Source of the DNA: Bacillota bacterium
GTDB lineage: Bacteria; Bacillota; Clostridia; Lachnospirales; Lachnospiraceae
Length of the DNA stretch: 20,357 nt
Direction of reading: 5' to 3'
NCBI GenBank assembly: GCA_023386315.1
Contig: JAEWJZ010000032.1
Coordinates: forward strand, 1-20,357
Part shown: positions 2,374 to 19,451 of the stretch, piece after piece
Numbering within the stretch: position 1 is the first letter of the stretch
Layout of the letters: each line of letters starts with the position of its first letter
Notes under the pieces: model-generated
What the model was told of the DNA's origin: nothing
The model's database searches: none
The model's input: the letters and a program-made list of their open reading frames with translations, nothing else
Translations under genes and position numbers: made by a program

Positions 2374-2764
2374 CTGCTCTGTTTTAATATCAGAAAGGTA
2401 AGAAGAAGCTTAAGAAGAGTAGTGATTCAGTTTAAAATAAAAAAATTTTAAAAAAATATTTTGAACTAAACTTATAAAATTGCCCTTTTTTTGGACATTG
2501 TAATACCGTTTATGCAAAAACCCTAATTGATATAAGATATCATATGCCTGATGAATTGGTATTTTGTGGAAAACCGTCAAATTCCAAGTGGATGTTAATA
2601 ACACCAGTTGTGCAATTTATGGTCTGAAAAATGGTCAATCTGGTGACAGTTGACAAGAATACATGAAATAAAATACAATAAATTTACAGTAAATGTCGAA
2701 TTTGAACGAATTAAATTGTGCAAAAACTACAAACGAAAAAGCGATATTTTAAAGGAGGGTTACG
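2374..2764 (+). promoter_or_regulatory. Upstream region and sigma-A-like promoter of the oxidoreductase cluster
   Basis: This AT-rich spacer holds no convincing gene. A good vegetative-type promoter is present: TTGACA (2650-2655), an 18-nt spacer, then TACAAT (2674-2679). Transcription would start near 2686, about 80 nt before the ATG. TTGTGCAA occurs twice (2608-2615 and 2716-2723), flanking the promoter, and CACCAG (2602-2607) faces CTGGTG (2640-2645). These are candidate regulator sites. An AT-rich imperfect hairpin (2429-2439 with 2457-2467) has no obvious role. I found no GG-N10-GC sigma-54 promoter despite the AAA+ activator encoded at the end of the cluster. AAGGAGG (2752-2758) is the ribosome binding site of the first gene. 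Confidence 0.6.
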
Positions 2765-5485
2765 ATGCAAAAGAAAACATTAATAATCAATGGCACCAAG
2801 ACGATTCTGGTTGCTGATGCGGAAGACAAGCTGTCTGATGTTTTAAGAAAACAGCTTGGTCTTACTGGTACAAAGGTGGGCTGCGGAATCGGGGAATGCG
2901 GATCCTGTTCCGTAATTCTTAATGGGAAATTAGTGAGATCGTGTATTACAAGGATGAAAAAGGTGGAGGAAAATTCCGAGATCATCACAATTGAGGGAGT
3001 CGGCACAAAAGATCGCCTTCATCCGCTTCAAATCGCATGGATGGTTCATGGCGGTGCCCAGTGCGGATACTGTACTCCGGGCTTCATTGTTTCAGCTAAA
3101 GTTCTTCTGGATCAGAATAATAACCCCACAAGGGAAGAAGTGAGGGACTGGTTCCAGAAAAACAGAAATCTTTGCCGCTGTACCGGTTACAAGCCTTTGG
3201 TGGATTCAGTTATGGATGCTGCAAAATTAATGAGAGGAGAGATAGAAGTTAAAGATATCTGGAAGAAGATACCGGAAGGTGCATCCTTAATGGGAACGGA
3301 ATACATTCGTCCGTCCGCACTGGCAAAAGTTACAGGAACCTGGGACTTTGGCGCAGATCTGGGCTTAAAGCTTCCTTCGGATACCCTGCATGCAAAGATT
3401 GTACAGGCTGATGTATCCCATGCCAATATTATATCCATTGACACTTCTGAAGCTGAAAAAGTACCTGGTGTATATGCAGTATTGACCTACAAAGACGTAA
3501 AGGGAACAAACCGGATCAACGGTCTGGCATTTCCTACCAATAAAGGTGACGGTTTAGACAGGCCCATTTTAAATGATAAGAAAGTTTTCCAGTTTGGAGA
3601 TGCACTGGCAATTGTTCTTGCTGAGAATGAAAAGGCGGCCCATGCAGGTGTTGATAAGGTAAAAGTTGAATTAGAGGTATTGCCAGCATACATGAATGCG
3701 CCGGATGCCATGGCAGAAGATGCAATTGAGATCCATCCGGGGACGCCCAATGTTTACTTTGAAAACTATGTGACAAAAGGCGAAGAGACAGCTCCAATTA
3801 TGGAAAGCGCTCCCTATGTGGTGGAGGACAGCTTCTACGTTCAGAGACAGCCTCATCTGCCGATTGAGCCAGATGTAGGATTTGCATATGTGGATGATGA
3901 CGGGAAATTAATCATTCATTCCAAGAGCATTGCCATTCATTTTCATGCTTTGATGATAGCAGAAGGTGTGGGAATGAAGCCGGAAGATGTTTATATTGTA
4001 CAGAATAATACCGGAGGTACCTTTGGTTACAAGTTCAGCCCGACGATTGAGGCTCTGCTGGGGGTTGCGACTCTTGCAACAGGCCGTCCCGTATATCTTG
4101 AATTTAATATGTTCCAACAGATTACCTATACAGGAAAGAGATCTCCATTCTGGACAACCATGAAGATGGCTGCGGACAAAGAAGGAAAAATTATGGCTAT
4201 GGAATCTGACTGGAGCGTGGATCATGGTCCTTATTCCGAATTCGGCGATTTACTGACACAGAGAGGGTTCCAGTTCGGCGGAGCGGGATATCAGATTCCC
4301 AATATCCGGGGAAATGGACGGACGGTATGTACCAATCATGGCTGGGGTTCCGCATTCCGCGGCTATGGATCACCGGAAATTATGTTCCCTTCAGAAGTTC
4401 TGATCGATGAATTGGCAGAGAAAGCGGGCATGGATCCGTTTGAGTTCCGTTATAAGAATATTTACAGGGAAGGTGATACCACGCCGACGGGATGCCAGCC
4501 TGATGTATACTGCCTGGAGGGATTGTTTGAAAAGGCCCGTCCGGTATACGAAGAGGCCAAAAAGAATGCTGCGAGGAAGAATGAAGAAAGTCAGGATAAA
4601 AAGTATGGTGTCGGCATTACCGTTAATATCTATGGCTGCGGTCTCGATGGTCCTGATACTTCGGAGGCGTGGGCGGAACTCACTCCAAAAGGAGTTTCCG
4701 TAGGCAACTCATGGGAAGATCACGGGCAGGGAGCAGATATTGGAACATTAACTTATGCCCACGAAACATTAAAGCCGTTAAATTTAAAACCGGAGCAGAT
4801 TGATCTGGTCATGAACGATATGACAAAGACTCCAAACAGCGGACCATCCGGCGGCAGCCGCCAGAACCTGGTAACAGGCAATGCCACTACAGTCGCATGC
4901 AGGAATTTGCTGGAAGCTATGAAAAAGGAAGATGGCACCTACCGGACTTATGATGAGATGGTGGAAGAAGGACTGGAATTAAAATACAGCGGAAAATGGA
5001 CTGCTCCCTGTACTGACACGCCTCCGGAGGGAGGTCAGGGCAACCCGTTTGCAGGTTATATGTACGGTGTCTGTGTTGCAGAAGTAGAGGTTGATTTAAA
5101 CACAGGTAAGACGAAAGTTGAAAAGATGACGCTGGCAGCTGATGTGGGCACCATTATTAATAAACTGGCTGTAGACGGGCAGATGTACGGCGGTCTTGTC
5201 CAGGGAATCGGTCTTGCATTATCAGAAGACTTTGATGATTTGAAAAAACATACCACATTGACACGCTGTGGAATTCCACAGATCAAGGATGTACCGGATG
5301 TGCTTCAGCTCATGTACACAGAGACAAAAAGACCAAATAACTTCTACGGCGCTTCCGGTGCCGGTGAAATGCCTCTTGCTGCTCCACATGCAGCTATAAT
5401 CAATGCGATTTACAATGCATGCGGTGTCAGAGTGACACATTTACCGGCTCTTCCTGAAAAGGTCCTTGCCGGCCTGAAGAAATAA
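2765..5485 (+). CDS. mop: Molybdenum aldehyde oxidoreductase (Desulfovibrio Mop type)
   Basis: This 906-residue xanthine-oxidase-family enzyme matches the size and domain order of Desulfovibrio gigas aldehyde oxidoreductase (907 residues). Residues 1-75 form a plant-type [2Fe-2S] domain with Cys40, 45, 48 and 60. Residues 80-155 form the helical second [2Fe-2S] domain with Cys100, 103, 137 and 139. The rest is the molybdopterin-binding part, with GGTFGYKFSP, AFRGYG and GPSGGSRQ. The catalytic base is Glu868 in GASGAGEMPL, equivalent to Glu869 of Mop. It should oxidise aldehydes to acids using molybdopterin cytosine dinucleotide in the cytoplasm. There is no FAD domain, so electrons must leave through another protein, probably the next gene product. 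It is the first gene of the cluster, with a strong ribosome binding site. The true substrate is not known. Confidence 0.95.
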   Translation: MQKKTLIINGTKTILVADAEDKLSDVLRKQLGLTGTKVGCGIGECGSCSVILNGKLVRSCITRMKKVEENSEIITIEGVGTKDRLHPLQIAWMVHGGAQCGYCTPGFIVSAKVLLDQNNNPTREEVRDWFQKNRNLCRCTGYKPLVDSVMDAAKLMRGEIEVKDIWKKIPEGASLMGTEYIRPSALAKVTGTWDFGADLGLKLPSDTLHAKIVQADVSHANIISIDTSEAEKVPGVYAVLTYKDVKGTNRINGLAFPTNKGDGLDRPILNDKKVFQFGDALAIVLAENEKAAHAGVDKVKVELEVLPAYMNAPDAMAEDAIEIHPGTPNVYFENYVTKGEETAPIMESAPYVVEDSFYVQRQPHLPIEPDVGFAYVDDDGKLIIHSKSIAIHFHALMIAEGVGMKPEDVYIVQNNTGGTFGYKFSPTIEALLGVATLATGRPVYLEFNMFQQITYTGKRSPFWTTMKMAADKEGKIMAMESDWSVDHGPYSEFGDLLTQRGFQFGGAGYQIPNIRGNGRTVCTNHGWGSAFRGYGSPEIMFPSEVLIDELAEKAGMDPFEFRYKNIYREGDTTPTGCQPDVYCLEGLFEKARPVYEEAKKNAARKNEESQDKKYGVGITVNIYGCGLDGPDTSEAWAELTPKGVSVGNSWEDHGQGADIGTLTYAHETLKPLNLKPEQIDLVMNDMTKTPNSGPSGGSRQNLVTGNATTVACRNLLEAMKKEDGTYRTYDEMVEEGLELKYSGKWTAPCTDTPPEGGQGNPFAGYMYGVCVAEVEVDLNTGKTKVEKMTLAADVGTIINKLAVDGQMYGGLVQGIGLALSEDFDDLKKHTTLTRCGIPQIKDVPDVLQLMYTETKRPNNFYGASGAGEMPLAAPHAAIINAIYNACGVRVTHLPALPEKVLAGLKK

Positions 5486-5493
5486 TTGAAATC

Positions 5494-5533
5494 AGGAATT
5501 GGGAGGTGATCACATTTCCCAATTCCTCTTTCC
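5494..5533 (+). terminator. Stem-loop after the aldehyde oxidoreductase gene
   Basis: AGGAATTGGGA (5494-5504) and TCCCAATTCCT (5517-5527) form a perfect 11-bp stem with a 12-nt loop. The following tract CTTTCC is only weakly T-rich. Termination is thus probably partial, or the hairpin protects the 3' end of the oxidoreductase mRNA, so that the first gene would be expressed above the ten downstream genes. The bases GGAGGTGATC (5502-5511), complementary to the 16S 3' end, lie partly in the stem and partly in the loop. Confidence 0.6.
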
Positions 5534-5608
5534 ATTTATGAGGGCAGAAGGGCATACGGACATGATGAAATCATGGAAAATACAGTCGGCGATAAGAGAG
5601 GAAAAGGA

Positions 5609-7969
5609 ATGGATCTGGATAAATTATTAGAAATCAGCAATCAGTGCATTCATAATGAACCGCCGGTTTGTACAGCCTCCTGTCCGGTTCATATGGAGGT
5701 GATTGAATTTGTATCAGAAATTGAAAAGGGCGAATTTGAAAAAGCGTATAAACTTATGGAAAGCAGACTTCCTCTTACCAGACTGCTGGGAACAATCTGT
5801 GATCACCCATGTGAGAACGTATGCTCCAGAAACTGTGCAGGAGGGAGCATCCATATCAGTGATCTTGAGAAGACAGTGATCGAACTGGGCTATAAGCCGC
5901 CAAAGAGATCAATTTCTCTGCCAAAGAAAAAGGGCAGTGTGGCAGTGATCGGCGGTGGACTGAGCGGACTTTGTGCAGCCATTGATTTAAATAAAAAAGG
6001 CTATCAGGTGATAATATATGAAAAAACAGACCGGTTAGGAGGAAGAATCTGGAATTACGAAGGAAGCCTCCTTCATAAGGATATGATTGAAGCAGAGCTC
6101 GTACAAATTGAAAAAAGCGGAATAAACATAAACTTTGGTACAGAGGTGACGGAAGATATTCTTAAGGAGTTAATGGGGAAGTTTGATGCCCTGTATCTGG
6201 GAACCGGGGAGTGGAGAACACATTATCAGCCTGATCCGGTTACATTTCAGGCTGATGATCTCCCGATATTTATCGGCGGAAAGCTTTCTGGATGTGAGGA
6301 TTCGGTTATTTTATCTGCCAGTTCCGGGAAAAGAGCGGCGGTATCCATCGACCGGTATATCACGAAAAGCTCTATGACTGCCTCCCGTGAACGGGAAGGC
6401 GTTTATAAGACTTTACTGGATTATTCTGTGAAAGATGTGGTTCCTGTTTTACCGGCGGAAAAAGAAACGGAGATTTATTCCGGAGATGAAGCCAAGAAAG
6501 AAGCAGGGCGCTGCTTAAAATGCCAGTGCAATGAGTGCATAAAGGCCTGCAGCCATATGCAGAAGTTTGATATCACGCCCAATGCCTATATAAGAAGAAT
6601 CAATCACAATGAACGGATTATTCTTGGAACACATTTTGCAAATAAAATGATTAACTCCTGTACGGAATGCGGGTTATGCAAGGTACAATGCCCGGTTGGA
6701 ATAGGGATGCAGGATATCATTCATGAAACAAGGAAGAGTATGGTGGAACGAGGCAAGATGCCATTATCGGCCCATGATTTTGCACTGAAGGATATGCAGT
6801 TCAGCATGAGTGAGGATTGTTCGTTTGTCAGAAAACAGCCGGATAAGGAACAGTCAAAATCCCTCTTTTACTACCCTGTTCTGGCTTTCTCCCAATATGC
6901 AAGAGGACTTTATAAAGGTTCGGGAAAGACTGGATACCTGTTTTATCCCGGCTGTCAGCTCAGTGCCACCCATGCAAAGTATATCGGAGAGCTGTATAAG
7001 CATCTGGTTGGAGTGATTAAGGAACGCGAGGCTGAGAATGATGTGGGATTGTATTTGGGATGCTGCGGTGCTCCGGCTGACTGGGCAGGCAGACAGGATT
7101 TGATGCAGGAAAATGTGAATAAGATTAAAGACGTTTGGGAAGATATGGGACAACCGGTTTTTATCCTGGCATGTACCAGCTGCATGAGTGTGTTTGAAAA
7201 ATACATGCCTATGATTCAGACTGTATCATTATGGGAAGTTCTGGATCATTATGGTTTGCCGGAGGTTGATATTAAACAGGGAAAGCGGATCTTAAATATC
7301 CATGATGCCTGTACTGCAAGATATCATGGGGGAATTCATGAGAGCATTCGCAATATTGCAAAAACCTTAGGCTATAAGATAGAGGAACTTGATTATTCCA
7401 GGGAAAAAGCAAAATGCTGCGGCTATGGCGGACTGGTTTCCAATGCCAATAAAGAACAGGCGGAAGCATTTGTATCGGACCGCATCAGTGAAAGCAGCGA
7501 AGATCTGCTGGTTTACTGTGCAATGTGCAAGGATTCTCTTATGAGGGGAAATAAGAGAGTATACCACATTCTGGATATTATTTATGGAAATGAAATTGAT
7601 GATGATACTCCTCAGACCATTCTCACATTATCTGACAGACATAACAACAGAAGAAAATTAAAGGCAGATCTGCTGAAAGAAATATGGAAGGAAGATCAGG
7701 ATATGGAAACAGGCTGTGATTTTAAATTAATAATACCGGATGATGTTATGGCTGTTATGGATGAGCGGTTTATCTTAACAGATGATGTATGGAAAGTCGT
7801 AGACCATTCCAGAAAAAACAATGAACGGTTCTTTCAGCCGGATACATGCAATTACCTGGCCAGATTAAGGCTGGGGAATGTGACATACTGGGTTCAGTAT
7901 GAGGAAAAGGGAAATGAGATTTTTGTCAAACAGGTGTACAGCCACAGGATGGAAATATTGGAGGAGTAA
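5609..7969 (+). CDS. FAD-dependent Fe-S oxidoreductase with CCG domains (DVU_1558-like)
   Basis: The protein has 786 residues from the ATG at 5609, which has AGAGAGG 7 nt upstream; an ATG at 5573 would add 12 residues but lacks a good site. Four parts are visible. Residues 10-95 are a glutamate-synthase-type dicluster domain (Cys13, 21, 25, 64, 68, 72, 76). A shortened FAD domain follows, with GGGLSG at 115-120. A ferredoxin-like segment holds Cys302/305/307/310/314 and Cys351/354/357/361. Two HdrB/GlpC-type CCG domains carry Cys449, 485-486, 522, 525 and Cys568, 603-604, 637, 640. About 90 further residues at the C terminus are unassigned. The likely role is to take electrons from the aldehyde oxidoreductase and pass them to a soluble acceptor, or the reverse. 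NCBI calls the family pyridine nucleotide-disulfide oxidoreductase/dicluster-binding protein, as I recall. Confidence 0.85.
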   Translation: MDLDKLLEISNQCIHNEPPVCTASCPVHMEVIEFVSEIEKGEFEKAYKLMESRLPLTRLLGTICDHPCENVCSRNCAGGSIHISDLEKTVIELGYKPPKRSISLPKKKGSVAVIGGGLSGLCAAIDLNKKGYQVIIYEKTDRLGGRIWNYEGSLLHKDMIEAELVQIEKSGININFGTEVTEDILKELMGKFDALYLGTGEWRTHYQPDPVTFQADDLPIFIGGKLSGCEDSVILSASSGKRAAVSIDRYITKSSMTASREREGVYKTLLDYSVKDVVPVLPAEKETEIYSGDEAKKEAGRCLKCQCNECIKACSHMQKFDITPNAYIRRINHNERIILGTHFANKMINSCTECGLCKVQCPVGIGMQDIIHETRKSMVERGKMPLSAHDFALKDMQFSMSEDCSFVRKQPDKEQSKSLFYYPVLAFSQYARGLYKGSGKTGYLFYPGCQLSATHAKYIGELYKHLVGVIKEREAENDVGLYLGCCGAPADWAGRQDLMQENVNKIKDVWEDMGQPVFILACTSCMSVFEKYMPMIQTVSLWEVLDHYGLPEVDIKQGKRILNIHDACTARYHGGIHESIRNIAKTLGYKIEELDYSREKAKCCGYGGLVSNANKEQAEAFVSDRISESSEDLLVYCAMCKDSLMRGNKRVYHILDIIYGNEIDDDTPQTILTLSDRHNNRRKLKADLLKEIWKEDQDMETGCDFKLIIPDDVMAVMDERFILTDDVWKVVDHSRKNNERFFQPDTCNYLARLRLGNVTYWVQYEEKGNEIFVKQVYSHRMEILEE

Positions 7970-7971
7970 AA

Positions 7972-8178
7972 GTGGAAGCTGACAAGAAGGAAAAAAATCT
8001 ATGGATCTGCAGCAGATGCAGCAGGGAGCTGGTCCCGGAAAAGGTGAAAGTACGGTATCTGGAAGGAAACTTTGAAGTAGAACTTTTTAAATGTCCGCAA
8101 TGCAATCAGGTGTTTATCAGTGAGGAACTGGCTTTGGGGAAAATGCTGGAAGTAGAAAAGGGATTGGAGGATAAATAA
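7972..8178 (+). CDS. Zinc-ribbon-like mini-protein (DVU_1557-like redox protein)
   Basis: This 68-residue protein has two CxxC knuckles, Cys13/Cys16 and Cys41/Cys44, separated by a short beta-rich linker. That is the layout of a zinc ribbon or rubredoxin-like site. It starts at GTG, 2 nt after the preceding stop, with GGAGGAG (7960-7966) 5 nt upstream. The spacing shows tight translational coupling to the large Fe-S oxidoreductase. Its size and position match the DVU_1557 family of the same gene set in Desulfovibrio. It may carry a mononuclear metal centre or act as a metal or sulfur carrier; neither is shown by the sequence. Confidence 0.8.
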   Translation: MEADKKEKNLWICSRCSRELVPEKVKVRYLEGNFEVELFKCPQCNQVFISEELALGKMLEVEKGLEDK

Positions 8179-8916
8179 TTGAAAAGCTGCAATGCATATG
8201 AAAGCAGATGCATGAGCGACGTAATGGGCCGTACATTAAGGCCGGGAGAGTTTAAACTGACAAAGAAGGCCGTCGAGTTTTGTCATATTACTTCTGAGAA
8301 CAGGATTCTGGATTTAGGCTGCGGGATGGGTGCCACGATTGGTTTTTTATATGAGAACTATAAAATAAAAGGGGTTGGAATTGATCCTTCCGAAAAACTG
8401 CTTGGTATGGCTAAGGAGGTATGCCCGTTTGCTGATTTTGTGACAGGAACAGGAGATTTTCTGCCGTTTCCAGACGAAAGTTTTGATTTTGTACTGGCAG
8501 AATGCACCTTATCACTCATGAATGATATAGGTAAGACCTTAAGTGAGGTAAGGCGGGTTTTAAAAAATGGCGGCTTTTTTGTGGTCACCGATGTTTACGC
8601 AAAAAAGCCGGATGCAGCCGCAGACTTAAAAAACAGTTCCATTGTCAGCTGCATGAGAGGACTTCACGATCTGGAAAAACTGGAGGAAAGGATAGAGGAT
8701 ATGGGGTTTGATATCCTTTTGACTGAGGACTGCAGTGATCTGTTAAAAGAACTGATGGTAAAGATCATTTTTCAGTTCGGTTCCATGGATGTTTTCTGGA
8801 ATAAGGCGGTGGTAAGCGGAGATTGTGAAACAGGGACGTTGTTTCAACAAAAGATAAAGCTATGTAAACCAGGGTATTTTATACTGATTGGCAGAAAGGA
8901 GCAATATTATGGATGA
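8179..8916 (+). CDS. trsM: SAM-dependent methyltransferase (DVU_1556 / TrsM-like)
   Basis: This 245-residue class I methyltransferase has the SAM-binding motif ILDLGCGMG at residues 43-51, the acidic GVGIDPSEKLL strand end, and FDFVLAECTLSLM as motif II. The family-specific GRTLRPGEFKLT segment precedes the core at residues 17-28. The start is TTG at 8179, immediately after the preceding stop codon and 8 nt after GGAGG (8166-8170). The next ATG at 8212 lacks such a site. The C-terminal third, about residues 150-245, is cysteine-containing and diverges from generic methyltransferases. The substrate is unknown. Its place between the zinc-ribbon and C_GCAxxG_C_C genes argues for a dedicated step in the same pathway rather than general metabolism. 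Confidence 0.85.
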   Translation: MKSCNAYESRCMSDVMGRTLRPGEFKLTKKAVEFCHITSENRILDLGCGMGATIGFLYENYKIKGVGIDPSEKLLGMAKEVCPFADFVTGTGDFLPFPDESFDFVLAECTLSLMNDIGKTLSEVRRVLKNGGFFVVTDVYAKKPDAAADLKNSSIVSCMRGLHDLEKLEERIEDMGFDILLTEDCSDLLKELMVKIIFQFGSMDVFWNKAVVSGDCETGTLFQQKIKLCKPGYFILIGRKEQYYG

Positions 8917-9367
8917 TCTGACTTTTAAAATATTTAAATTGTCTGCGTCGGGTTTCTGCTGCACACAGGTTATGATGAAATTAGCCCTTGAAGAAGAGGA
9001 AAAGGAAAATCATGACCTGATAAGAGCGGTACAAGGCCTTTGCAAAGGGATTGGCGGGAATCAGAAAACCTGCGGTGTTTTAACCGGCGGAGTCGGGATA
9101 CTGGGACTGTATGCTGGTAAAGGCAGGGAAAAGGAATACTCAAATGAGCATTTTTCACGAATGATTGATGAATTCTGCCAATGGTTTGAAATCGAATTCG
9201 GAAGCCTGGATTGTCAGGACCTGATTGGAGTGACAAGCTTTAAGGATGGAAACCAGACCTATCAGGTAAAGTGCGGAGATATACTAGCAAAAAGCTATCT
9301 GAAGGTTTGTGAAATGCTGTTTGAATACGGCTTTGATTACGGAAACAGGGAGAATGATAATGATTGA
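8909..9367 (+). CDS. C_GCAxxG_C_C family protein (DVU_1555-like)
   Basis: This 152-residue protein has the spaced cysteine pattern of the C_GCAxxG_C_C family: Cys17-Cys18 near the N terminus, Cys45, CGVLTGG starting at Cys55, Cys102 and Cys122. The start at 8909 is set by AAAGGAG (8895-8901) 7 nt upstream, and it overlaps the methyltransferase stop by 8 nt. Members are usually called putative redox or metal-binding proteins and often occur next to oxidoreductases or selenium-linked genes. The glycine-rich GGVGILGLYAGKG stretch after Cys55 probably forms a helical turn packing against a cofactor. The biochemical role is unknown. Co-translation with its neighbours ties it to the cluster. Confidence 0.82.
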   Translation: MDDLTFKIFKLSASGFCCTQVMMKLALEEEEKENHDLIRAVQGLCKGIGGNQKTCGVLTGGVGILGLYAGKGREKEYSNEHFSRMIDEFCQWFEIEFGSLDCQDLIGVTSFKDGNQTYQVKCGDILAKSYLKVCEMLFEYGFDYGNRENDND

Positions 9368-10688
9368 TCTGCATGAAACTGAAAGCTTATGTCCTGTCTG
9401 TTTAAAGAAGATACCTGCGTTCATCATTACAGAGGAAGGTACTTCTTTTATGAGAAAGACCTGTCCGGAACATGGAACTTCAACAACGGTTTTATGGAGA
9501 GGCGGCATTCCCATGACCAGCTGGATCAGAAATAAGGAAAGAGCACATATCAAAAATCCTGTGACCAGTGTTACAGAGGGCTGTCCTTTTGATTGCGGAC
9601 TCTGTGCAGATCACAGGCAGCATACATGCACGGCATTAATTGAAGTAACTCAGAACTGCAATCTAAATTGTAAGTTCTGCTTTGCAGATTCTCACGCAGC
9701 AAAGAATGAAGAGCCATCTTTAGATACCATCCGCCTTCAATACCAAAAGGTTTTTGAAGTTTCCGGCAGCTGTAATATTCAGCTGTCCGGCGGAGAACCT
9801 ACAGTCAGAGATGATCTGCCGGATATAATCAGAATGGGGACAGAACTGGGTTTTTCTTTTATTCAGGTCAATACCAATGGGATCCGCATGGCAGAAGAGG
9901 AGGACTATGTCAGGGCACTTAAAAAGTCAGGACTCAGTTCCGTTTTCTTACAATTTGACGGTATTAGTGATGAAACATATAAAAAGCTGAGAGGACAGCC
10001 GCTGTTTGAAAAGAAATTGAAAGCGATAGAAAACTGCAGAAAGTATGAGATCGGGGTTGTATTGGTGCCGACACTGGTCCCAGGCATTAACATCCTTCAG
10101 ATTGGGGATATAATCCGGTTTGCAGCCGGGCAGGCTCCTGCAGTCAGAGGGGTGCATTTTCAGCCGGTCAGTTACTTTGGCAGGATGCCCCATGCACCTG
10201 CCGATATGGACCGAATCACTCTGCCTGAAGTCATGGAAGAAGTAACAAGACAAACGGGAGGAATGATAACTGCCGAAAGCATGGAACCGCCGGGGTGTGA
10301 AAATTCTCTTTGTTCCTTTCACGGCAATTACATGATTGACGGAAAGGAACTAAAGCCGGTTACAAAGCGAAAAAGCTGCTGCTGCGGTACAGAACAGGCA
10401 GAAGAAGGAGCGAAAAAAGCAAAAGCATTTGTAGTCAGAAACTGGTCCGGCCATGAAGAAGGAACCTGTGAGGAACAAAAGGACTCTTCTGACTGGGGCG
10501 TCATACTGCAGAACATTCACAGGAATTCCTTCAGTATTTCTGCAATGGCATTTCAGGATGCGTGGAATGTTAACTTAGACCGGATTAAAGACTGCTGCAT
10601 TCATGTTGTGACCGGTGATTTAAGACTCATCCCATTTTGTATGTATAATTTAACAAATACGGAAGGAAGGTCTCTTTATAGAAAATAG
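9360..10688 (+). CDS. trsS: Cysteine-rich radical SAM enzyme (TrsS-like)
   Basis: The protein has 442 residues from ATG 9360, with GGGAG 7 nt before it; an in-frame ATG at 9354 is too close to that site. An N-terminal metal-binding part holds Cys11/Cys14, Cys35/His38 and Cys75/79/82/90. The radical SAM cluster motif is CNLNCKFC (Cys100, 104, 107), followed by the GGEPT motif of the SAM-binding barrel. Near the C terminus are three consecutive cysteines (340-342), then Cys412-413 and Cys427. This resembles the family NCBI names radical SAM (seleno)protein TrsS, in which some members carry selenocysteine, as I recall. Here all positions are ordinary TGC/TGT codons. The reaction is unknown. The gene overlaps its upstream neighbour by 8 nt. 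Confidence 0.85.
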   Translation: MIDLHETESLCPVCLKKIPAFIITEEGTSFMRKTCPEHGTSTTVLWRGGIPMTSWIRNKERAHIKNPVTSVTEGCPFDCGLCADHRQHTCTALIEVTQNCNLNCKFCFADSHAAKNEEPSLDTIRLQYQKVFEVSGSCNIQLSGGEPTVRDDLPDIIRMGTELGFSFIQVNTNGIRMAEEEDYVRALKKSGLSSVFLQFDGISDETYKKLRGQPLFEKKLKAIENCRKYEIGVVLVPTLVPGINILQIGDIIRFAAGQAPAVRGVHFQPVSYFGRMPHAPADMDRITLPEVMEEVTRQTGGMITAESMEPPGCENSLCSFHGNYMIDGKELKPVTKRKSCCCGTEQAEEGAKKAKAFVVRNWSGHEEGTCEEQKDSSDWGVILQNIHRNSFSISAMAFQDAWNVNLDRIKDCCIHVVTGDLRLIPFCMYNLTNTEGRSLYRK

Positions 10689-10703
10689 AAAAGGGGTCGC
10701 AAG

Positions 10704-12014
10704 ATGAAGCAGACGCCGTTGGAAAACTGGATTCTTAAACGTACCGGAATCCATGAACGAAGCAGACAGGCACTGGAAGAATATCAGATACAGCAATTGG
10801 CAAGTACACTGCATTATGCAAAAGATAACAGCAGGTATTATAAAAAACTGCTGGCACAGACAGACATTGATTCCATAAAATCCATAAGCGGTTTTCACGC
10901 TGTTCCTTTTACGTATCCGGAAGATATAAGGAAAAAACCAACGGACTTTTTATGTGTATCAGAAAAGGAAGTAAAGCGGATTGTTACGCTTAATACGTCC
11001 GGAACAAGCGGAGCGGAAAAAAGGATTTATTTTACCGAAGAAGATTTAAATCAGACCATCGATTTTTTTCAGTATGGTATGAGCTGTCTGACTGACCACT
11101 CTGACCGGGTTTTAGTGCTTCTCCCCGGCAAAGCATACGGAAGCATTGGGGATCTGTTAAAAAAAGCACTGGCTTTGTCTCATATAGAATGCATCGTTCA
11201 TGGAGTTTTAAGAGATCCGGAGGAAGTGGAACAGATTATAAAAGAGAATAGCATATCCTGTATTGTGGGAATCCCCATGCAGATTTTATATTTCAGCCGG
11301 ATTAAAAGTGAAGTGTTCCGCAAATATATAAAAAAGGTTCTGTTGAGTACGGACTATGTGCCTGGTGTTCTGGTTCAGGAATTGGAAAACAGATTTCATT
11401 GTGCTGTTTTCAATCACTATGGGATGACGGAAATGGGATACGGAGGAGGAGTAGAATGCCAGGCATTAACCGGTTATCATCTGCGGGAAGGGGATTTATA
11501 TTTTGAAATTATTGATCCTGTGACAGGAGAACCTGCAAAGAATGGCCAGTATGGAGAGGTGGTATTTACTACGTTTCGCCGGCAGGCTATGCCACTGATC
11601 CGGTACCGGACCGGTGATATGGCACGTTTTTCCCAAAACCATTGTGCCTGCGGGACATTTTTAAGAACAATGGATAAAGTAACAGGAAGAATTACAAATA
11701 AAGTGGTTTTTGATAATTTGGAAGAAATGCATTTGAGGGAGTTGGATGAAATCATTTTAAAATACAGTGAAGTACTGGATTATACCGCAGCTTTTTCCCA
11801 AACAGATACGTTGGAAATCCGCCTGACTTTAATGAATGGAGAATCATTTAAGAAACTTCAGGAAGAAATTGCTGAACGCATTTGTTCCGGGTGGAAGACA
11901 GATCTTAAGCTTCATATTACCTGGAAGCCTGACAGCAGGATATTTGAAATTACAAACAGTATGGGAAAAAGAAACTTGATTCGTCTGCAGGAAGGTGGGG
12001 GAAAAGATGGATGA
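10704..12014 (+). CDS. PaaK-like AMP-forming ligase (DVU_1553-like)
   Basis: This 436-residue protein belongs to the phenylacetate-CoA ligase branch of adenylate-forming enzymes. The ATP phosphate loop TSGTSG is at residues 98-103, YGMTEMG at 239-245, and the ribose-binding RTGD at 302-305. The start has AAAAGGGG 7 nt upstream. It should activate a carboxylate as an acyl-adenylate. The C-terminal hinge, usually GR-DD followed by a conserved K/G segment, reads GRITNKVVFDN here. The CoA-transfer half-reaction may therefore be altered or absent, and the acyl group could pass to a protein or other acceptor. It resembles the DVU_1553 family found with the same neighbours in Desulfovibrio. The substrate is unknown. 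Confidence 0.83.
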   Translation: MKQTPLENWILKRTGIHERSRQALEEYQIQQLASTLHYAKDNSRYYKKLLAQTDIDSIKSISGFHAVPFTYPEDIRKKPTDFLCVSEKEVKRIVTLNTSGTSGAEKRIYFTEEDLNQTIDFFQYGMSCLTDHSDRVLVLLPGKAYGSIGDLLKKALALSHIECIVHGVLRDPEEVEQIIKENSISCIVGIPMQILYFSRIKSEVFRKYIKKVLLSTDYVPGVLVQELENRFHCAVFNHYGMTEMGYGGGVECQALTGYHLREGDLYFEIIDPVTGEPAKNGQYGEVVFTTFRRQAMPLIRYRTGDMARFSQNHCACGTFLRTMDKVTGRITNKVVFDNLEEMHLRELDEIILKYSEVLDYTAAFSQTDTLEIRLTLMNGESFKKLQEEIAERICSGWKTDLKLHITWKPDSRIFEITNSMGKRNLIRLQEGGGKDG

Positions 12015-13062
12015 TATTTACGAAAAAATGAATGTTTTACTAAGGGACAGACAGGATTTTGTTGTAGCCACCATAGTGAGTAAATCTGGCTCCGCACCAA
12101 GGGAAGCAGGAACCAAAATGATAGTAAAACGGGATTTTACCTTAATCGGGTCCATTGGCGGGGGAATGCTGGAGGCCATGGTAACAAAATTTTCTTCCGG
12201 AGTTTTTGCAAGCAGGGAATTTGTAATTAAGGATTTTATTCTGATCGATAAGAAGGATTCTTCCATAGATATGGTCTGCGGCGGGGGTGTGAAAGTACTC
12301 ATAGAATATGTGGATCCCTATGATGGGGATGCTGTGAGTATTTATCAGAAGGCAGGCGAACTAAAAAAACAGGGATTGGAATTTGTGCTGATTACAAAGG
12401 TCCACAAGGATATTCCGTTTATTACCGGCAAAGACAAATGGATTTGTACAGAAACTGCTTTTTATGGAACTGAAGATCATGATTTGCAGAGGATCACCAA
12501 ATCCATTCGTGAAAATTTCAATCATATTAAAATTGAATTGAAGGAAGAAGAGGGACGTTATCTCATAGAGCCATTTTACCGGTTTGAACGTGTCTGCATC
12601 ATCGGAGCGGGGCATATCGCGCAGAAAATTGCAGGGTTCACTAAGGAACTGGGATTTTATACAGTTGTGGTAGATGACAGAAAAGAATTTGCTAATAAAA
12701 AAAGATTTCAGACTGCAGATGAAGTGAGGGCATTGTCCTCTCTTGATAATTTATCAAACAAAATCATGATTAATCATGATAGTTATATTATTATTGTAAC
12801 CCGGGGACATTCCTATGATATGAAAGTTCTCGCCCAGATGTTAAAAACCGATGCAAAATATATCGGAGTAATCGGAAGCAGCAAAAAAAGAGATTATACA
12901 TATCAGGAATTATTACAGGAAGGCTTTACAAAAGAAGATGTTAAGAGGATTTACTGCCCGATCGGTGTTAGAATCCATGCTGAGACTCCGGAGGAGATAG
13001 CGGTCAGCATAGCGGCAGAACTGATAAAGGTAAGAAGAGGGCAGGCCTATGACAGGGGATAG
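12007..13062 (+). CDS. XdhC-family molybdenum cofactor chaperone
   Basis: The protein has 351 residues from ATG 12007. A GTG at 11995 is possible, but AAGGTGG is better placed for 12007. The N-terminal XdhC/CoxI domain shows SGSAPREAG (27-35) and GSIGGG (48-53). The C-terminal Rossmann domain starts with IIGAGHIA (Gly200-His203) and ends with CPIGVRIHAETPEEIA, a hallmark of XdhC. XdhC binds molybdenum cofactor, promotes its sulfuration and delivers it to xanthine-oxidase-family apoenzymes. The client here is presumably the aldehyde oxidoreductase at the head of the cluster. It overlaps the ligase gene by 8 nt and the next gene by 14 nt. Confidence 0.92.
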   Translation: MDDIYEKMNVLLRDRQDFVVATIVSKSGSAPREAGTKMIVKRDFTLIGSIGGGMLEAMVTKFSSGVFASREFVIKDFILIDKKDSSIDMVCGGGVKVLIEYVDPYDGDAVSIYQKAGELKKQGLEFVLITKVHKDIPFITGKDKWICTETAFYGTEDHDLQRITKSIRENFNHIKIELKEEEGRYLIEPFYRFERVCIIGAGHIAQKIAGFTKELGFYTVVVDDRKEFANKKRFQTADEVRALSSLDNLSNKIMINHDSYIIIVTRGHSYDMKVLAQMLKTDAKYIGVIGSSKKRDYTYQELLQEGFTKEDVKRIYCPIGVRIHAETPEEIAVSIAAELIKVRRGQAYDRG

Positions 13063-14200
13063 GATTGCAGTTATAATAATAGCAGCAGGATATTCCTCAC
13101 GAATGAACGGTTTTAAACCATTGTACAGATTTAAAGGCCGTACAGCAATGGAGCGGTTAATCGATACGTACAGAGGTTCCGGTGTGCGGGATATTTATAT
13201 TGTAGTGGGATTTAATAGTGATGAGGTGATGGGGCAGCTGAAGGACCCTGATGTAACCTGGGTAATGAATGAATCCTATGCAGAGGGGATGCTGACTTCT
13301 ATAAAAAAGGGAATCCTGGCTTTGGACAAGCAGATCGATGCATTTTTTATGCAGCCGGTGGATATTCCATTAATTAAATCAAAAACACTGGATTTTTTGA
13401 CAGATAAATATTATAAATGTAGTAGAGGAATACTTTATCCGACATTTTATGGTGAAAAAGGTCATCCCCCGCTGATCAGCTGCAAATACAATGCTTTGAT
13501 CACAGGAAGTCCGGATGAAGGCGGACTCAAACGGATTCTTGAGAAGCTTGAAGAAGATTCCGTATGTGTTCCAGTATGTGACAGAGCCATACTAATGGAC
13601 ATGGATAAAGCAGAAGATTATGAAAATCTTCTGGCATATGATCAGCTGGATGCTCCTGATCCGGAAGAATGCCGGGCAATCAGGACATATTATGAAGTCC
13701 CGGAACCAGTCTGCAGGCATTGCGATGCGGTCGAACAAATTGCACATAACCTTTTTATGAAGCTGGACTCATCAGGCATTCAATTAAATGGGAATGCGCT
13801 TTCTGCAGCTGCCCTTTTACATGACATGGTAAGAAATGAAAAAAATCATGCGGCAGCAGGCGCTGATATCATAAAAGCCATGGGGTATGATTCCGTAAGC
13901 AATATTATGGCGACCCATATGGATTTAGAAGTTCATGAACAGGAACCACTGACAGAAAATGAACTGCTTTATCTGGCGGATAAGATTGTAAAGACGGACA
14001 GGATCTGCAGCCTGGACGAAAAATTTACTCAGGCTTTAAGAGACAAAGGGGATACTCCAGAGGCAATAGAAAATATAAAAAGGCGCTGGCTGTCGGCCCG
14101 GTCTGTCATCCATAAAATAGAAAGGATTACCGGTACAGGCTTTCAATATGACAAAACGGATATATCTGGTCAGGCATGGGAAGATACATACAGGAAATGA
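13049..14200 (+). CDS. MocA-like nucleotidyltransferase fused to an HD domain (DVU_1551-like)
   Basis: The protein has 383 residues. The N-terminal half is a MobA/MocA-type nucleotidyltransferase: IIAAGYSSRMNGFKPL binds the nucleotide and QPVDIP (Asp105) the metal. It probably converts molybdopterin to its cytosine dinucleotide form, which Mop-type enzymes need. From about residue 225 an HD phosphohydrolase-like domain follows, with His258-Asp259 and His290 as metal ligands. An HD domain on a MocA-like enzyme suggests hydrolysis of a phosphorylated or nucleotide intermediate, or turnover of the dinucleotide. GAAGAGGG (13034-13041) supports the start. The 3' end overlaps the phosphatase gene by 53 nt. 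It matches the family NCBI calls DVU_1551 family NTP transferase. Confidence 0.85.
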   Translation: MTGDRIAVIIIAAGYSSRMNGFKPLYRFKGRTAMERLIDTYRGSGVRDIYIVVGFNSDEVMGQLKDPDVTWVMNESYAEGMLTSIKKGILALDKQIDAFFMQPVDIPLIKSKTLDFLTDKYYKCSRGILYPTFYGEKGHPPLISCKYNALITGSPDEGGLKRILEKLEEDSVCVPVCDRAILMDMDKAEDYENLLAYDQLDAPDPEECRAIRTYYEVPEPVCRHCDAVEQIAHNLFMKLDSSGIQLNGNALSAAALLHDMVRNEKNHAAAGADIIKAMGYDSVSNIMATHMDLEVHEQEPLTENELLYLADKIVKTDRICSLDEKFTQALRDKGDTPEAIENIKRRWLSARSVIHKIERITGTGFQYDKTDISGQAWEDTYRK

Positions 14201-14738
14201 AAAGAGATATCTGGGGATTACAGATTTGCCCTTAGATCAGGAAGGAATCATGCAGGCGGAATTCCTAAAGGAAACATTTAAAGATATTCCAATAGATTTT
14301 GTTTTTACCAGTCCGTTAAAAAGGTGTGTGCAAACGGCAGAGATCCTGTTTGGAGGCAGCAGGCACGATTTTATCCAGGTAAAGGAATTTACGGAAATTA
14401 ATTTAGGATTATGGGAAAACAAACCAATCGAAACGATTAAAATGAATTTCCCTGCTGCTTACGAAGAAAGGGGAAAGAATTTATTAACCTTTAAGCCGCC
14501 GGAAGGGGAAAGCTTCGGGCAGCTGGCAGAAAGAGTGCTGCCTGCATTTGACCGCATTGGAAAGAATTATTCCGGAGATATCATGATCATGGGACATGCC
14601 GGAGTTAACAGGACCATTTTAAGTGAGATACAGGGGATTTCCATTGACGATTTTTTCCTGATCAGACAGCCATATGGCTGTGTTTACGAATTGCTGTGGA
14701 AGGAAGATTCCATATGTCAGGTGAAACGTTTGGTATGA
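14148..14738 (+). CDS. Histidine phosphatase family protein
   Basis: This 196-residue branch-1 histidine phosphatase has the catalytic RHG at residues 9-11, the TSPLKRCVQTAEIL segment, and the second catalytic histidine at 150 in MGHAGVNR. It resembles CobC/PhoE-like enzymes that remove phosphate from small metabolites or nucleotides. Its first 53 nt, including the RHG codons, overlap the end of the HD-domain gene in another frame, and no strong ribosome binding site precedes the ATG. Translation may therefore depend on ribosomes already on the message. In cobalamin synthesis similar enzymes act on alpha-ribazole phosphate, but no cobalamin genes are here, so a role in the cofactor or small-molecule pathway of this cluster is more likely. 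Confidence 0.87.
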   Translation: MTKRIYLVRHGKIHTGNEKRYLGITDLPLDQEGIMQAEFLKETFKDIPIDFVFTSPLKRCVQTAEILFGGSRHDFIQVKEFTEINLGLWENKPIETIKMNFPAAYEERGKNLLTFKPPEGESFGQLAERVLPAFDRIGKNYSGDIMIMGHAGVNRTILSEIQGISIDDFFLIRQPYGCVYELLWKEDSICQVKRLV

Positions 14739-14755
14739 AAGGGGGGCAATTCAGG

Positions 14756-16597
14756 ATGAAACATAATGATTTTCGAACAATTATTGAAAGCTCACGAAGG
14801 AGAAGCATAGCGGCGGATATCAGCTGCGACCAGGTCTACAGTAAAAAAATAATCGATAATATTGAATTGCAAAAGAAGTTTGCAGAAAATAGAAATATGA
14901 TTTTAACAGCAGCCCCATATATGGAGCAGCTGATTAATTTTGTTATCGATTATAATTTTTTTGTTTTATTGACGGATGGAGAAGGCTGTATCTTAAATGT
15001 ATCCGGTAATGAGAAGATCCTGAATGAGGCCTTTGAACTGAAGATGATTCCGGGCGCTTACATGGATGAAGAGAGTATTGGTACAAATGCAATGGCGGTG
15101 GTGCTGAAAACAGGTGGCCCCATACAGTTATCTGGTGAAGATCATTTTATAAAGGCCTACCACCGCTGGACCTGCTCCGGAGCTCCCATCAAAGACAGCC
15201 ATGGGAAACTGATTGGAGTTTTAAATCTGACAGGCTATACGGAACAGGTTCATCCACATACTCTTGGAATGGTAATTGCCGCTTCCAATGCCATTGAAGA
15301 AATGCTCAAAGTAAAAGAGTATCATAAATTACAGAATATAAATTATAAGCATATGAATACCATATTCAATTCCATGCCGGTAGCAATTATTACTTCTGAT
15401 CTGGAAGGTAATATAAAATTATATAACAATCAGGCGACCGAACTTTTCGGCAAAGCTGACAGCCTTATGGAAGTAACGAGGATGAATGAGCTGATCAGGA
15501 ACTGGGAATCCATGATAGAAGTTATTGTAAATGGAGAGAATGTGGAACAGGATATCAGCATTAAGAATTTTAGCTGTCATCTTACGGCGAATCCCATATA
15601 TAATCCAGTGGATGATAGTATCGAGATTGTATACATTTTTGAAGAGATAAAAAAATCAAATATTGCGGCCTATTATATTTTTGATAAAATTATTGGTGAG
15701 GACCCAAATTTCTTAAAAATTGTCCAATATGCAAAAAAAATATCAGACAGCAAATCAACAATCCTGATTTTAGGGGAAAGCGGTACCGGAAAAGAAGTGT
15801 TTGCCCAGTCCATACATAATTACAGTAGCAGAATGGATGCACCTTTTATCGCAATAAACTGCGGGGCAATACCAAAAGAGTTTATGGAGCTGGAACTCTT
15901 TGGCTATGAAGAAGGGGCATATGCAGGGGCAAAAAAAGGAGGAAGCCAGGGAAAGTTCGAACAGGCGGATGGCGGGACCATCCTATTTGACGAAATCGGC
16001 GCGCTTCCTCTGGATATGCAGGTGAAACTTCAGAGAGTACTGCAGGAAGGAATAATAACAAGGATTGGCAGTCAGAAGTCGATACCTGTTAATGTACGGG
16101 TCATTGCTGCAAGCAATAAAGATTTAAAAAAAGAAGTGGAATCCGGAAGATTCAGAAAGGATCTTTATTACCGCCTCAATGTACTGCCGTTATATTTGCC
16201 GCCACTGCGTGAACGAAAAGGGGATATCGGTCTGCTGATCCAATACTTTATGAAACTGATCTGTAACAAGCTTAATAAAAAAGAGGTTGCAATTCCAAAG
16301 GAATATTTAAAACAGATGATGAATTATAACTGGCCCGGAAATATCAGGGAACTGGAAAACATCGTGGAGTTGATTGTTAATTCCGAAACCATTCCTACAG
16401 AATACTTTAATCAGGAAACCGGTAATGAAGATATTGATCAGGAAGAAGAAATTTTAGACCTAGCCTATGTGGAGCGGGAACAGCTAAAGAAAGTTCTTCA
16501 AAAGAATAACGGGAACATCACCAGAACAGCCAGTGATTTAGGAATTAGAAGGAATACGCTTTATAGCAAGATAAAAAAGTATAATATAAAAATATAA
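14756..16597 (+). CDS. GAF-PAS-AAA+-Fis transcriptional regulator, sigma-54 activator type
   Basis: The protein has 613 residues from ATG 14756, with AAAGGGGGG (14738-14746) 9 nt upstream; an in-frame GTG at 14696 lies inside the phosphatase gene. Residues about 45-200 are an AcoR-like GAF sensor (GAYMDEESIGTNAMA), 205-290 a PAS domain, then an AAA+ core with Walker A GESGTGKE and Walker B GGTILFDEIG, and a C-terminal Fis-type helix-turn-helix. It is the last gene of the cluster and probably senses a cluster substrate or cofactor. The sigma-54 contact loop, normally GAFTGA, is GAYAGA (residues 387-392). Loss of the threonine usually harms sigma-54 activation. It may still bind DNA as a conventional regulator. 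Confidence 0.9.
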   Translation: MKHNDFRTIIESSRRRSIAADISCDQVYSKKIIDNIELQKKFAENRNMILTAAPYMEQLINFVIDYNFFVLLTDGEGCILNVSGNEKILNEAFELKMIPGAYMDEESIGTNAMAVVLKTGGPIQLSGEDHFIKAYHRWTCSGAPIKDSHGKLIGVLNLTGYTEQVHPHTLGMVIAASNAIEEMLKVKEYHKLQNINYKHMNTIFNSMPVAIITSDLEGNIKLYNNQATELFGKADSLMEVTRMNELIRNWESMIEVIVNGENVEQDISIKNFSCHLTANPIYNPVDDSIEIVYIFEEIKKSNIAAYYIFDKIIGEDPNFLKIVQYAKKISDSKSTILILGESGTGKEVFAQSIHNYSSRMDAPFIAINCGAIPKEFMELELFGYEEGAYAGAKKGGSQGKFEQADGGTILFDEIGALPLDMQVKLQRVLQEGIITRIGSQKSIPVNVRVIAASNKDLKKEVESGRFRKDLYYRLNVLPLYLPPLRERKGDIGLLIQYFMKLICNKLNKKEVAIPKEYLKQMMNYNWPGNIRELENIVELIVNSETIPTEYFNQETGNEDIDQEEEILDLAYVEREQLKKVLQKNNGNITRTASDLGIRRNTLYSKIKKYNIKI

Positions 16598-16782: not shown

Positions 16783-17508
16783 CTGCGTGAACTGGATTAC
16801 CTGGCTTTGGAAGCAGCACAGGATGAAAATACATTAAATCGTTTTATTGAACAGCAGGAAACGTTCATTTTAAGTACTGCATCGAAGGTTACAGGACATT
16901 TTATAACGAAAAGTGATGATGAATGGTCCATCGCTTTAGGCGCATTTGTACAGGCTGTTAAGGATTATGATTTAAATCGCGGCAGTTTTTTTTATTTTGC
17001 AAAAATGGTGATACAAAGACGGTTAATTGATTATATCAGACAGCAGAAGAAATACAAAAATGAAATAACCGTAAACCCGAACCTGTTTGATTCGGATTCG
17101 GACGAAGATGATAATGAAAATGATCACATTCGATATGCTGTTTCTAAAAAATCATTGGAGTCGCATAGACAGGAAAGTCTTGCATTTGAAATCAATACGG
17201 TAAATGATATCCTTATGGAATACGGCTTTACTTTCTTTGATCTGATAAAATATTCTCCAAAGGCTGCGAAAACAAAAACTGCCTGCGTAAAGGTCATTGC
17301 CTTCTGTTTAGGAGATCCAATGGTTACCCATGTATTGAAAAATACGAAATTATTACCTGTAAAAATTCTTGAAAATAATACAAAAGTACCCCGGAAAATA
17401 ATAGAGCGGCATCGAAAATATATAATAGCAGCCATAGTGATACTATCCGGAGAGTATCAGGAACTTGCTGAATATCTGCGAACCATCAGAGAGGAGATGA
17501 AACGATGA
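16783..17508 (+). CDS. sigI: RNA polymerase sigma factor SigI
   Basis: The protein is about 241 residues from a CTG at 16783, or 233 from TTG 16807. The CTG has GGGAGGGG (16769-16776) 6 nt upstream and gives an N terminus of family-like length; the TTG has no ribosome binding site. Region 2 features are visible: a DENTLNRFIE helix, DDEWSIALGAFVQAVKDYDLNRGSFFYFA, then RRLIDYIRQQKK. The C-terminal part carries the SigI-specific helical DNA-binding domain (KVPRKIIERHRKYIIAAIVILSGEY). SigI factors respond to cell-wall or heat stress in Bacillus and to polysaccharides in cellulolytic clostridia. The stop overlaps the rsgI start (ATGA), the usual arrangement for a sigma/anti-sigma pair. Confidence 0.92.
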   Translation: MRELDYLALEAAQDENTLNRFIEQQETFILSTASKVTGHFITKSDDEWSIALGAFVQAVKDYDLNRGSFFYFAKMVIQRRLIDYIRQQKKYKNEITVNPNLFDSDSDEDDNENDHIRYAVSKKSLESHRQESLAFEINTVNDILMEYGFTFFDLIKYSPKAAKTKTACVKVIAFCLGDPMVTHVLKNTKLLPVKILENNTKVPRKIIERHRKYIIAAIVILSGEYQELAEYLRTIREEMKR

Positions 17509-19061: not shown

Positions 19062-19421
19062 TTGATTATACGTGATGAGTATACTTGTCCTCTGGAACTT
19101 ACACACGACATTACAAGAGGCAAATGGAAACCTATTATTTTATGGCTGCTGGGTAAAGAGCCGTTATCGCTGTCCCAGCTGGAACATAGTATTAAAAAAA
19201 TTAATCAGAAAATGCTTTTAGAACAATTGAAAGAGCTGATGTCATTTGGTATCATTTCAAAGCAGACATTTGACGGTTATCCCCTTAAAGTGGAATATTG
19301 TTTAACGGACCGGGGCCGTGAACTGCTGCAGGCGATCACAATTATGCAAAAAGTGGGCATTGAACTGATGCTGGAGAATGGAATGAATGATGTTCTAAAG
19401 GCAAATGGATTTGCAGAATGA
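19062..19421 (+). CDS. HxlR-family winged-helix transcriptional regulator
   Basis: This 119-residue protein has the HxlR pattern: CPLELTHDITRGKWKPIILWLL at the N terminus, the recognition helix region INQKMLLEQLKELMSFGII, and the wing YPLKVEYCLTDRGREL. The start is TTG at 19062, with GGAGGTGA ending about 5 nt upstream. Cys10, just before the first helix, is the residue that senses thiol-reactive compounds in several HxlR members. HxlR proteins often control a neighbouring oxidoreductase or flavin-binding gene. The adjacent PNPOx-like gene, 76 nt downstream, is the likely target. Confidence 0.92.
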   Translation: MIIRDEYTCPLELTHDITRGKWKPIILWLLGKEPLSLSQLEHSIKKINQKMLLEQLKELMSFGIISKQTFDGYPLKVEYCLTDRGRELLQAITIMQKVGIELMLENGMNDVLKANGFAE

Positions 19422-19440
19422 CGATACCTACAAAAAAGTG

Positions 19441-19451
19441 GGTAATTTACC
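19441..19451 (+). promoter_or_regulatory. Palindrome GGTAATTTACC, candidate HxlR operator
   Basis: An 11-nt palindrome (GGTAA-T-TTACC) lies in the spacer between the HxlR gene and the PNPOx-like gene, upstream of AT-rich sequence that could hold a -10 element (TACAAT, 19477-19482). Position and symmetry fit a repressor or activator site, but no direct evidence identifies the binder. Confidence 0.35.

Follow-up and report, generated by a model that had tools for sequence, protein, structure and literature searches.

Why should a molybdenum-dependent aldehyde oxidoreductase be encoded together with a radical S-adenosylmethionine (SAM) enzyme, a methyltransferase, and an adenylate-forming ligase? 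The question is raised by an eleven-gene cluster in the first 20,357 nucleotides of contig JAEWJZ010000032.1 (assembly GCA_023386315.1) from a Lachnospiraceae member of the Bacillota, a stretch referred to as a whole as the window. Its genes are given short names here: mop for the oxidoreductase, dic for the FAD/Fe-S/CCG protein, d57 for a mini-protein, mt for the methyltransferase, cga for the C_GCAxxG_C_C protein, trs for the radical SAM enzyme TrsS, and lig for the PaaK-like ligase, followed by xdhC, mocA, a histidine phosphatase gene, and a regulator gene. A first-pass annotation had described eleven same-strand genes and equated the cluster with the DVU_1551-1559 set; all eleven are confirmed as forward-strand open reading frames (ORFs), with gaps of 0-15 nt from mop's neighbour onward where the frames do not overlap, and nine of the eleven proteins score above the curated cut-off of a family-specific NCBIfam model. 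These models bear neighbourhood names (DVU_1551, 1553, 1555, 1556, 1557, TrsS, 'diclust_near_Sec', 'XdhC_rel_AOR', and 'pterin_aldehy') and were, by their names, built around the DVU_1551-1559 neighbourhood. TrsS (NF045646) is also tabulated, in the portion of the source available to us, as a radical SAM selenoprotein family credited to Haft & Tolstoy 2025 (PMC13188914). The cluster is thus catalogued by NCBI curators, yet no functional explanation of it was found in the literature searched.

We conclude that the cluster is well supported as one nearly obligate system. The best explanation of what it does, which we hold tentatively and at somewhat less than even confidence, is a single system of three parts whose third part acts in trans, likely on the tail of d57. 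In the first, Mop would oxidise an aldehyde and hand the electrons to dic, d57 being a small subunit or carrier dedicated to dic. In the second, XdhC, the MocA-HD protein, and perhaps the phosphatase would supply Mop's molybdopterin cytosine dinucleotide (MCD) cofactor. In the third, mt, cga, TrsS, and the ligase would constitute a maturation module acting in trans, its likeliest target being the flexible C-terminal -E-(D/G)-K tail of d57. There the module would attach or build a small, probably redox-active group, and the charged tail could swing as an arm between Mop and dic. More speculatively, an acid might be adenylated by the ligase and loaded onto the tail lysine, with TrsS forming a C-S or C-C bond on the tail-borne group. 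The choice of d57 as target, the redox-active nature of the group, and the order of the steps are points that we infer.

A nearly obligate gene set

A TrsS-based scan of contigs returned 157 relatives, of which the best 80 loci were kept; by their record titles these belong to Bacillota, Campylobacterota, Desulfobacterota, Chloroflexota, and other groups, which bears out the earlier proposal of a spread across distant phyla. Given that 45 of the 51 fetched loci with full flanks keep the identical order mop-dic-d57-mt-cga-trs-lig, which is also that of the window, the gene set represents more than chance. Within these 51 loci mop is present in 49 and dic, d57, mt, cga, and lig each in 50; all six partners occur together in 47 (the exceptions being L030, L070, L071, and L073), and 389 of 395 partner genes lie on the TrsS strand. 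Near TrsS, xdhC is found in 31, mocA in 32, and the phosphatase in 33 of the 51. No further family belongs to the constant gene set, the commonest additional one (among ORFs of at least 80 residues) being found in 20 of 83 loci, the second commonest in 12. No usable Mop lay near TrsS in 14 of the 21 loci sent to whole-genome search; of these, 13 genomes were searched (that of L057 was left out), and an above-cut-off mop was found elsewhere in nine, partial or split genes in G002 and G003, and weak matches only in the drafts G005 and G014.

Genome-wide profiles, which cover mop, TrsS, d57, lig, mt, and dic, are similarly consistent. Among 150 Desulfovibrionales, the order of genome G013, mop is above cut-off in 90 and TrsS in 88; 86 have both, four mop only, two TrsS only, and 58 neither, so that 86 of the 92 genomes with either have both (Fisher p 5e-34, uncorrected for kinship). 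Of the four genomes with mop only, three have it on a 3.7-7.5 kb contig broken within mop or dic, and in both TrsS-only genomes the contig stops within mop or immediately before dic. Likewise, of 245 Clostridia genomes, nine have mop above cut-off and nine have TrsS, and these are the same nine. Further profiling of d57, lig, mt, and dic covered 77 genomes (24 of the 95 double positives, all six exceptions, eight with sub-threshold TrsS relatives, and 39 with neither above cut-off), and all four genes are above cut-off in the same 27, namely the 24 double positives together with G099, G039, and G166. None of the four reaches its cut-off in the 47 profiled genomes without Mop and TrsS, where sub-cut-off ligase paralogues are common, or in the Mop-only genomes G023, G097, and G101, the dic of G097 being cut by a contig end. 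The first-pass annotation would have been refuted had the radical SAM enzyme, methyltransferase, and ligase usually occurred without Mop; the genome profiling did not find this pattern, and the co-occurrence profiles support the first-pass view of one self-contained system as a nearly obligate one.

Individual loci carry further features. A MoeA/MogA-like gene with a molybdenum-cofactor-synthesis domain is found in 18 of the best 80 TrsS loci, in most of them immediately 5' of mop, the one member tested scoring below curated cut-offs. Contig C49 of G009 (L031, L111, and L112) has four mop-like genes beside one TrsS set, three of them above cut-off (1601, 1147, and 1136 bits) and one at 792, and in a complete Clostridium genome (L012, G004:C1:4315254-4317963) the Mop frame is broken near its end with the other cluster genes kept.

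The d57 mini-protein and its tail

The 68 residues of d57 are laid out as CxxC-x24-CxxC-x24-COOH, and both x24 spacings are exact in 82 of the 83 d57 proteins with two CxxC pairs, the outlier extending for 240 residues. The C-terminus is conserved too: 86 locus copies end in LEDK (77), MEDK (5), VEDK (2), LEEK (1), or TRSE (1), [LMV]EDK thus covering 84, and among the 120 database relatives listed of 149 the endings are LEDK (116), LEGK (2), MEDK (1), and LEDN (1), with [LM]EDK in 117. No common C-terminus exists in the six other cluster proteins checked, whose most frequent final four residues occur in at most five sequences. In the alignment of 85 d57 sequences the columns conserved at 90% or more include the four cysteines, Y29, E62, L65, E66, D67, and K68. 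The structural model (mean pLDDT 73) predicts a zinc ribbon, a helix at 51-62, and a non-helical tail at 63-68 with a mean pLDDT of 50 for the tail block. A C-terminus that is free, flexible, and conserved would be expected in a carrier arm, or else in a peptide entering the active sites of partners.

Two known systems invite comparison. Carriers of the LysW type are small zinc ribbons with their chemistry at a conserved C-terminus, and d57 is likewise a small zinc ribbon with a conserved C-terminus; its tail, however, ends E-D-K, presumably unlike the LysW motif, and its proposed partner is an adenylate-forming ligase. No LysW match to d57 appeared in the NCBIfam results (E up to 10) or among the 60 PDB profile matches listed out of 110; both lists were filtered or cut short. 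The proposed lysine-borne redox arm is reminiscent of lipoyl-domain systems, as is the E3-type enzyme of a variant locus discussed below, but d57 is a zinc ribbon rather than a lipoyl domain, and the NCBIfam search matched none of the eleven window genes to a lipoate synthase or lipoate ligase family.

Genome G259 has three mop-dic-d57 units and a single TrsS, mt, and above-cut-off ligase, which argues that the module acts in trans, and d57 is present in both halves of two split operons (L018/L108 and L070/L110). One module beside three units would equally suit a diffusible redox cofactor or mediator made for Mop and dic, in which case d57 would be an ordinary zinc or redox protein whose tail serves only to dock onto dic. 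A ligase, a methyltransferase, and a radical SAM enzyme are the usual make-up of a small-molecule pathway; the models of d57 and of the dic C-terminal domain weakly resemble MqsA and RelE-type folds, and MqsA-MqsR is a solved binding pair (3hi2). In L064:6145-8787, moreover, one open frame fuses dic and d57 and keeps the LEDK tail at its end. This fusion also ties d57 to dic, in line with the carrier reading, as does the lone dic C-terminal domain next to d57 in a variant locus, L120. A docking tail that needs a free C-terminus at fixed spacing would nonetheless be unusual in our judgement, and no additional family is constant across the loci, as counted above. We regard a diffusible product as doubtful, though worth keeping in view.

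Mop and the molybdenum cofactor

The aldehyde oxidoreductase of Desulfovibrio gigas (1sij/1vlb) was the first structure of the xanthine-oxidase family, and the window Mop belongs to the same family: it exceeds the cut-off of NF045668, carries two 2Fe-2S and two molybdenum-cofactor domains, and has 1dgj and 1sij as its closest solved structures. Genome G113 is taken as D. gigas because its Mop is 100% identical over 309 residues to the crystallised enzyme (PDB 1sij). The G113 locus, L103, has the order mop-dic-d57-mt-cga-trs-lig-xdhC-phosphatase and differs from the window in that tblastn with the window protein detected no MocA-HD. According to the parts of a review available to us (PMC10223205), the enzyme isolated from D. 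gigas biomass has a well-defined MCD pterin at 1.28 A, is active without a sulfido ligand, and has flavodoxin as its putative physiological partner.

These observations bear directly on two options in the first-pass annotation, a modified molybdenum cofactor and a modification of the oxidoreductase. The near-strict co-occurrence of the module with Mop would favour such a target, as would the presence of xdhC and mocA beside it in about 60% of full-flank loci. Given, however, that the D. gigas-type genome carries TrsS, mt, and lig beside the identical Mop and that the enzyme nevertheless has an ordinary MCD, a modified cofactor is unlikely unless it was lost in preparation. Near TrsS, xdhC and mocA are also far less constant than mop, and the module occurs in a 13-kb variant locus (L120) in which tblastn detected neither mop nor xdhC nor mocA, although Mop is encoded elsewhere in its genome. 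Modification of the cofactor or of the oxidoreductase by the module is consequently very improbable. Among the options first put forward, a modification on the electron partner fits best, with the d57 tail as the likeliest, though inferred, site.

TrsS and the ligase

The best solved relative of the window TrsS is the tetraether lipid synthase Tes (GDGT-MAS, 7tol). An assignment as Tes itself was rejected, the Tes model scoring 381.4 bits against a cut-off of 450. The window protein has the ligand residues C28, C31, C52, and H55; C92, C96, C99, and H102; C117, C121, and C124; C429, C430, and C444; and M413. In an alignment of 91 TrsS sequences, the rubredoxin-type cysteines C28, C31, and C52, the N-cluster cysteines C92, C96, and C99, and the radical SAM (RS) cluster cysteines C117, C121, and C124 are present in all 91, H55, H102, C429, C444, and the labile Met M413 in at least 93%, and C430 in 74. 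As described in the portion of the Tes study available to us, Tes has rubredoxin-type, N-, RS, and C-cluster sites with a labile Met, its substrate carbon bonds to a cluster sulfur en route to C-C coupling, and Tyr459 is fully conserved in archaeal Tes (PMC9433317). All four metal-site motifs, the labile Met included, are kept in TrsS, whereas Tyr459 is Val in the window copy; TrsS, by comparison with one Tes sequence, has two invariant cysteines of its own, C107 and C335. Because the ligand motifs are kept while Tyr459 is replaced and C107 and C335 are TrsS-specific, TrsS probably performs Tes-like radical chemistry on a substrate other than that of Tes, as far as sequence can tell. The window copy is a Cys form, unlike the tabulated selenoprotein family, and the fetched TrsS sequences, a set perhaps biased to Cys forms, showed no clear in-frame TGA in their conserved body. 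A second, sub-threshold TrsS/Tes-like family (334-350 bits) is found at L106 (G067) and L107 (G052) and also in G022, G042, and G062, all Desulfovibrionales without above-cut-off Mop or d57.

In the ligase, the motifs SGT..K, HYG..E, and TGD and residue K422 are conserved and intact in the window. PaaK relatives, by their names, activate acids, and Mop yields acids, so that TrsS, the ligase, and the methyltransferase might instead make the aldehyde precursor or process the acid product, with Mop as the middle step. An extra stand-alone mop at L123:8094-12089 is followed by a gene resembling alcohol dehydrogenase, and such genes, named by eye, occur in 7 of 83 loci. Mop relatives accept many aldehydes, however, no other catabolic family is constant across loci, and a substrate pathway leaves unexplained both the conserved d57 tail and the Mop-free variant; we consider it unlikely.

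A Mop-free variant and the case against the d57 tail

The variant locus L120 (L120:3617-12282, genome G280) has a C_GCAxxG_C_C protein and, beside a d57 relative, the dic C-terminal domain alone (about 100 residues, 57.7 bits), together with an mt relative, TrsS (544.9 bits), a second TrsS-like protein, and a ligase (333.1 bits). Its flavoprotein scores above the TIGR01350 dihydrolipoyl-dehydrogenase cut-off (475.6 against 408.8), which makes that substrate a predicted one. In G413, TrsS, a second TrsS, and the ligase adjoin HgdB-like genes; a second TrsS occurs only in G280 and G413 among 391 Clostridia genomes. A core of d57, dic C-terminal domain, cga, mt, TrsS, and lig can therefore part from Mop, and the E3-type neighbour in L120 hints at a disulphide-type redox group. 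The same locus bears on an alternative target, dic, where the module would install or repair a cluster or residue (at the CCG sites, for example) in place of acting on d57: dic is co-inherited as strictly as d57, but L120 keeps d57, TrsS, mt, and lig with none of the FAD, Fe-S, or CCG parts of dic. We know of no CCG protein elsewhere that needs such a module, and a dic target seems improbable.

Several observations weigh against the tail of d57 as the point on which the system turns. G023 is a true exception to co-inheritance, with mop on a 270-kb contig and no d57, mt, dic, or TrsS above cut-off, and it shows that a Mop without these partners is possible; G134 and G136 have additional stand-alone Mop genes, and the split loci L030 and L036 have mt-cga-trs-lig without d57. 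A second d57 copy in G118 has no tail, and one of the tandem d57 genes at L102:8397-8937 lacks the conserved tail. Conservation of the d57 tail could reflect docking alone. The solved ligase relatives, PaaK structures, are named CoA ligases, and nothing links the ligase to protein substrates. In L120, the d57 relative, which ends LEGK, scores 33.1 bits against a cut-off of 60 and the mt relative 84.6 against 155; the E3-type neighbour there is a single draft-genome case, and so is the L064 fusion, which could reflect a lost stop or an assembly error. Finally, D. gigas Mop passes electrons on via flavodoxin in vitro (PMC10223205, in the parts available), so that d57 is not strictly required there.

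Organization of the window locus

Coordinates are collected in the table; gene starts are those of the longest ORFs, and several true starts may sit further downstream.

Features of the aldehyde oxidoreductase operon, in window coordinates
Feature	Coordinates	Strand	Basis
mop, molybdopterin aldehyde oxidoreductase, DVU_1559 type	2765..5485	+	NF045668 1633.5 bits, cut-off 1100
dic, FAD / 4Fe-4S / CCG electron carrier, DVU_1558 by gene order	5573..7969	+	NF045663 996.3 bits, cut-off 530; Fer4_20, CCG, Fer4 domains
d57, DVU_1557-family zinc-ribbon mini-protein, proposed carrier	7972..8178	+	NF045645 100.3 bits, cut-off 60
mt, DVU_1556-family SAM methyltransferase	8179..8916	+	NF045667 242.3 bits, cut-off 155
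cga, DVU_1555-family C_GCAxxG_C_C protein	8888..9367	+	NF045669 166.1 bits, cut-off 103; PF09719
trs, radical SAM enzyme TrsS, homologue of tetraether lipid synthase	9309..10688	+	NF045646 688.6 bits, cut-off 490; PF23545 (Zn-ribbon N-terminus), PF04055
lig, DVU_1553-family PaaK-like adenylate-forming ligase	10704..12014	+	NF045666 471.6 bits, cut-off 300; PaaK structures
xdhC, XdhC-type aldehyde oxidoreductase maturation factor	11995..13062	+	NF045664 417.5 bits, cut-off 350
mocA-HD, DVU_1551-family MocA-like NTP transferase with HD domain	13049..14200	+	NF045665 427.1 bits, cut-off 315; NTP_transf_3 + HD
Histidine phosphatase, CobC-like	14148..14738	+	PF00300; TIGR03162 155.7 bits, below cut-off 162.9
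GAF/PAS sigma-54-dependent regulator, last gene	14696..16597	+	PF00158, PF02954
dic C-terminal domain (VTYWVxY...YSHRM)	7646..7966	+	model with RelE/BrnT-like neighbours; free-standing in variant L120
Codons for conserved d57 C-terminal tail L-E-D-K	8164..8175	+	sequence conservation; non-helical in model
Sigma-70-like promoter 5' of mop, TTGACA-18-TACAAT	2650..2679	+	matches 11/12 consensus positions
Hairpin at boundary between mop and remaining genes	5494..5527	+	15-pair stem; fold z = -2.6

Given that mop and dic are separated by 87 nt containing the hairpin, mop may be partly uncoupled from the downstream genes. Sigma-70-like matches as good as the mop promoter are about as common as in shuffled sequence (51 against 45.4), and no sigma-54-type site was found upstream of mop with up to two mismatches allowed. 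The phosphatase was rejected as an alpha-ribazole phosphatase CobC on its TIGR03162 score. The operon lies near an rRNA operon, with the 3' end of a 23S rRNA gene (1-187) and a tRNA-Gly gene (278-352) upstream, followed by a TraX-family protein gene (546-1319). Directly 3' of the operon is a SigI-type sigma factor and RsgI-like anti-sigma pair (16807-18863), which also adjoins the cluster in L001; an HxlR-type regulator gene and one for a PNPOx-like protein follow (19062-19917).

Implications

On the genome evidence, D. gigas-type aldehyde oxidoreductases rarely occur without d57, dic, and the unexplained module. In its boldest form, which we think unlikely as it stands, the proposal would make DVU_1557-type proteins the first example of a new kind of protein-borne redox cofactor: the PaaK-like ligase would charge their C-terminal lysine, and the Tes-like radical SAM enzyme, by forming a C-S or C-C bond on the acyl group held there, would together with the methyltransferase build it into a lipoyl-like arm. 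That arm, not flavodoxin, would be the physiological acceptor of the D. gigas-type enzyme, and in rare variants it would serve other enzymes. The genome evidence singles out a small and easily measured target, the C-terminal tail of the 68-residue d57. If the proposal is true, that tail would carry a new protein-borne cofactor and would place TrsS, a bacterial relative of tetraether synthase, in a reaction context for the first time.

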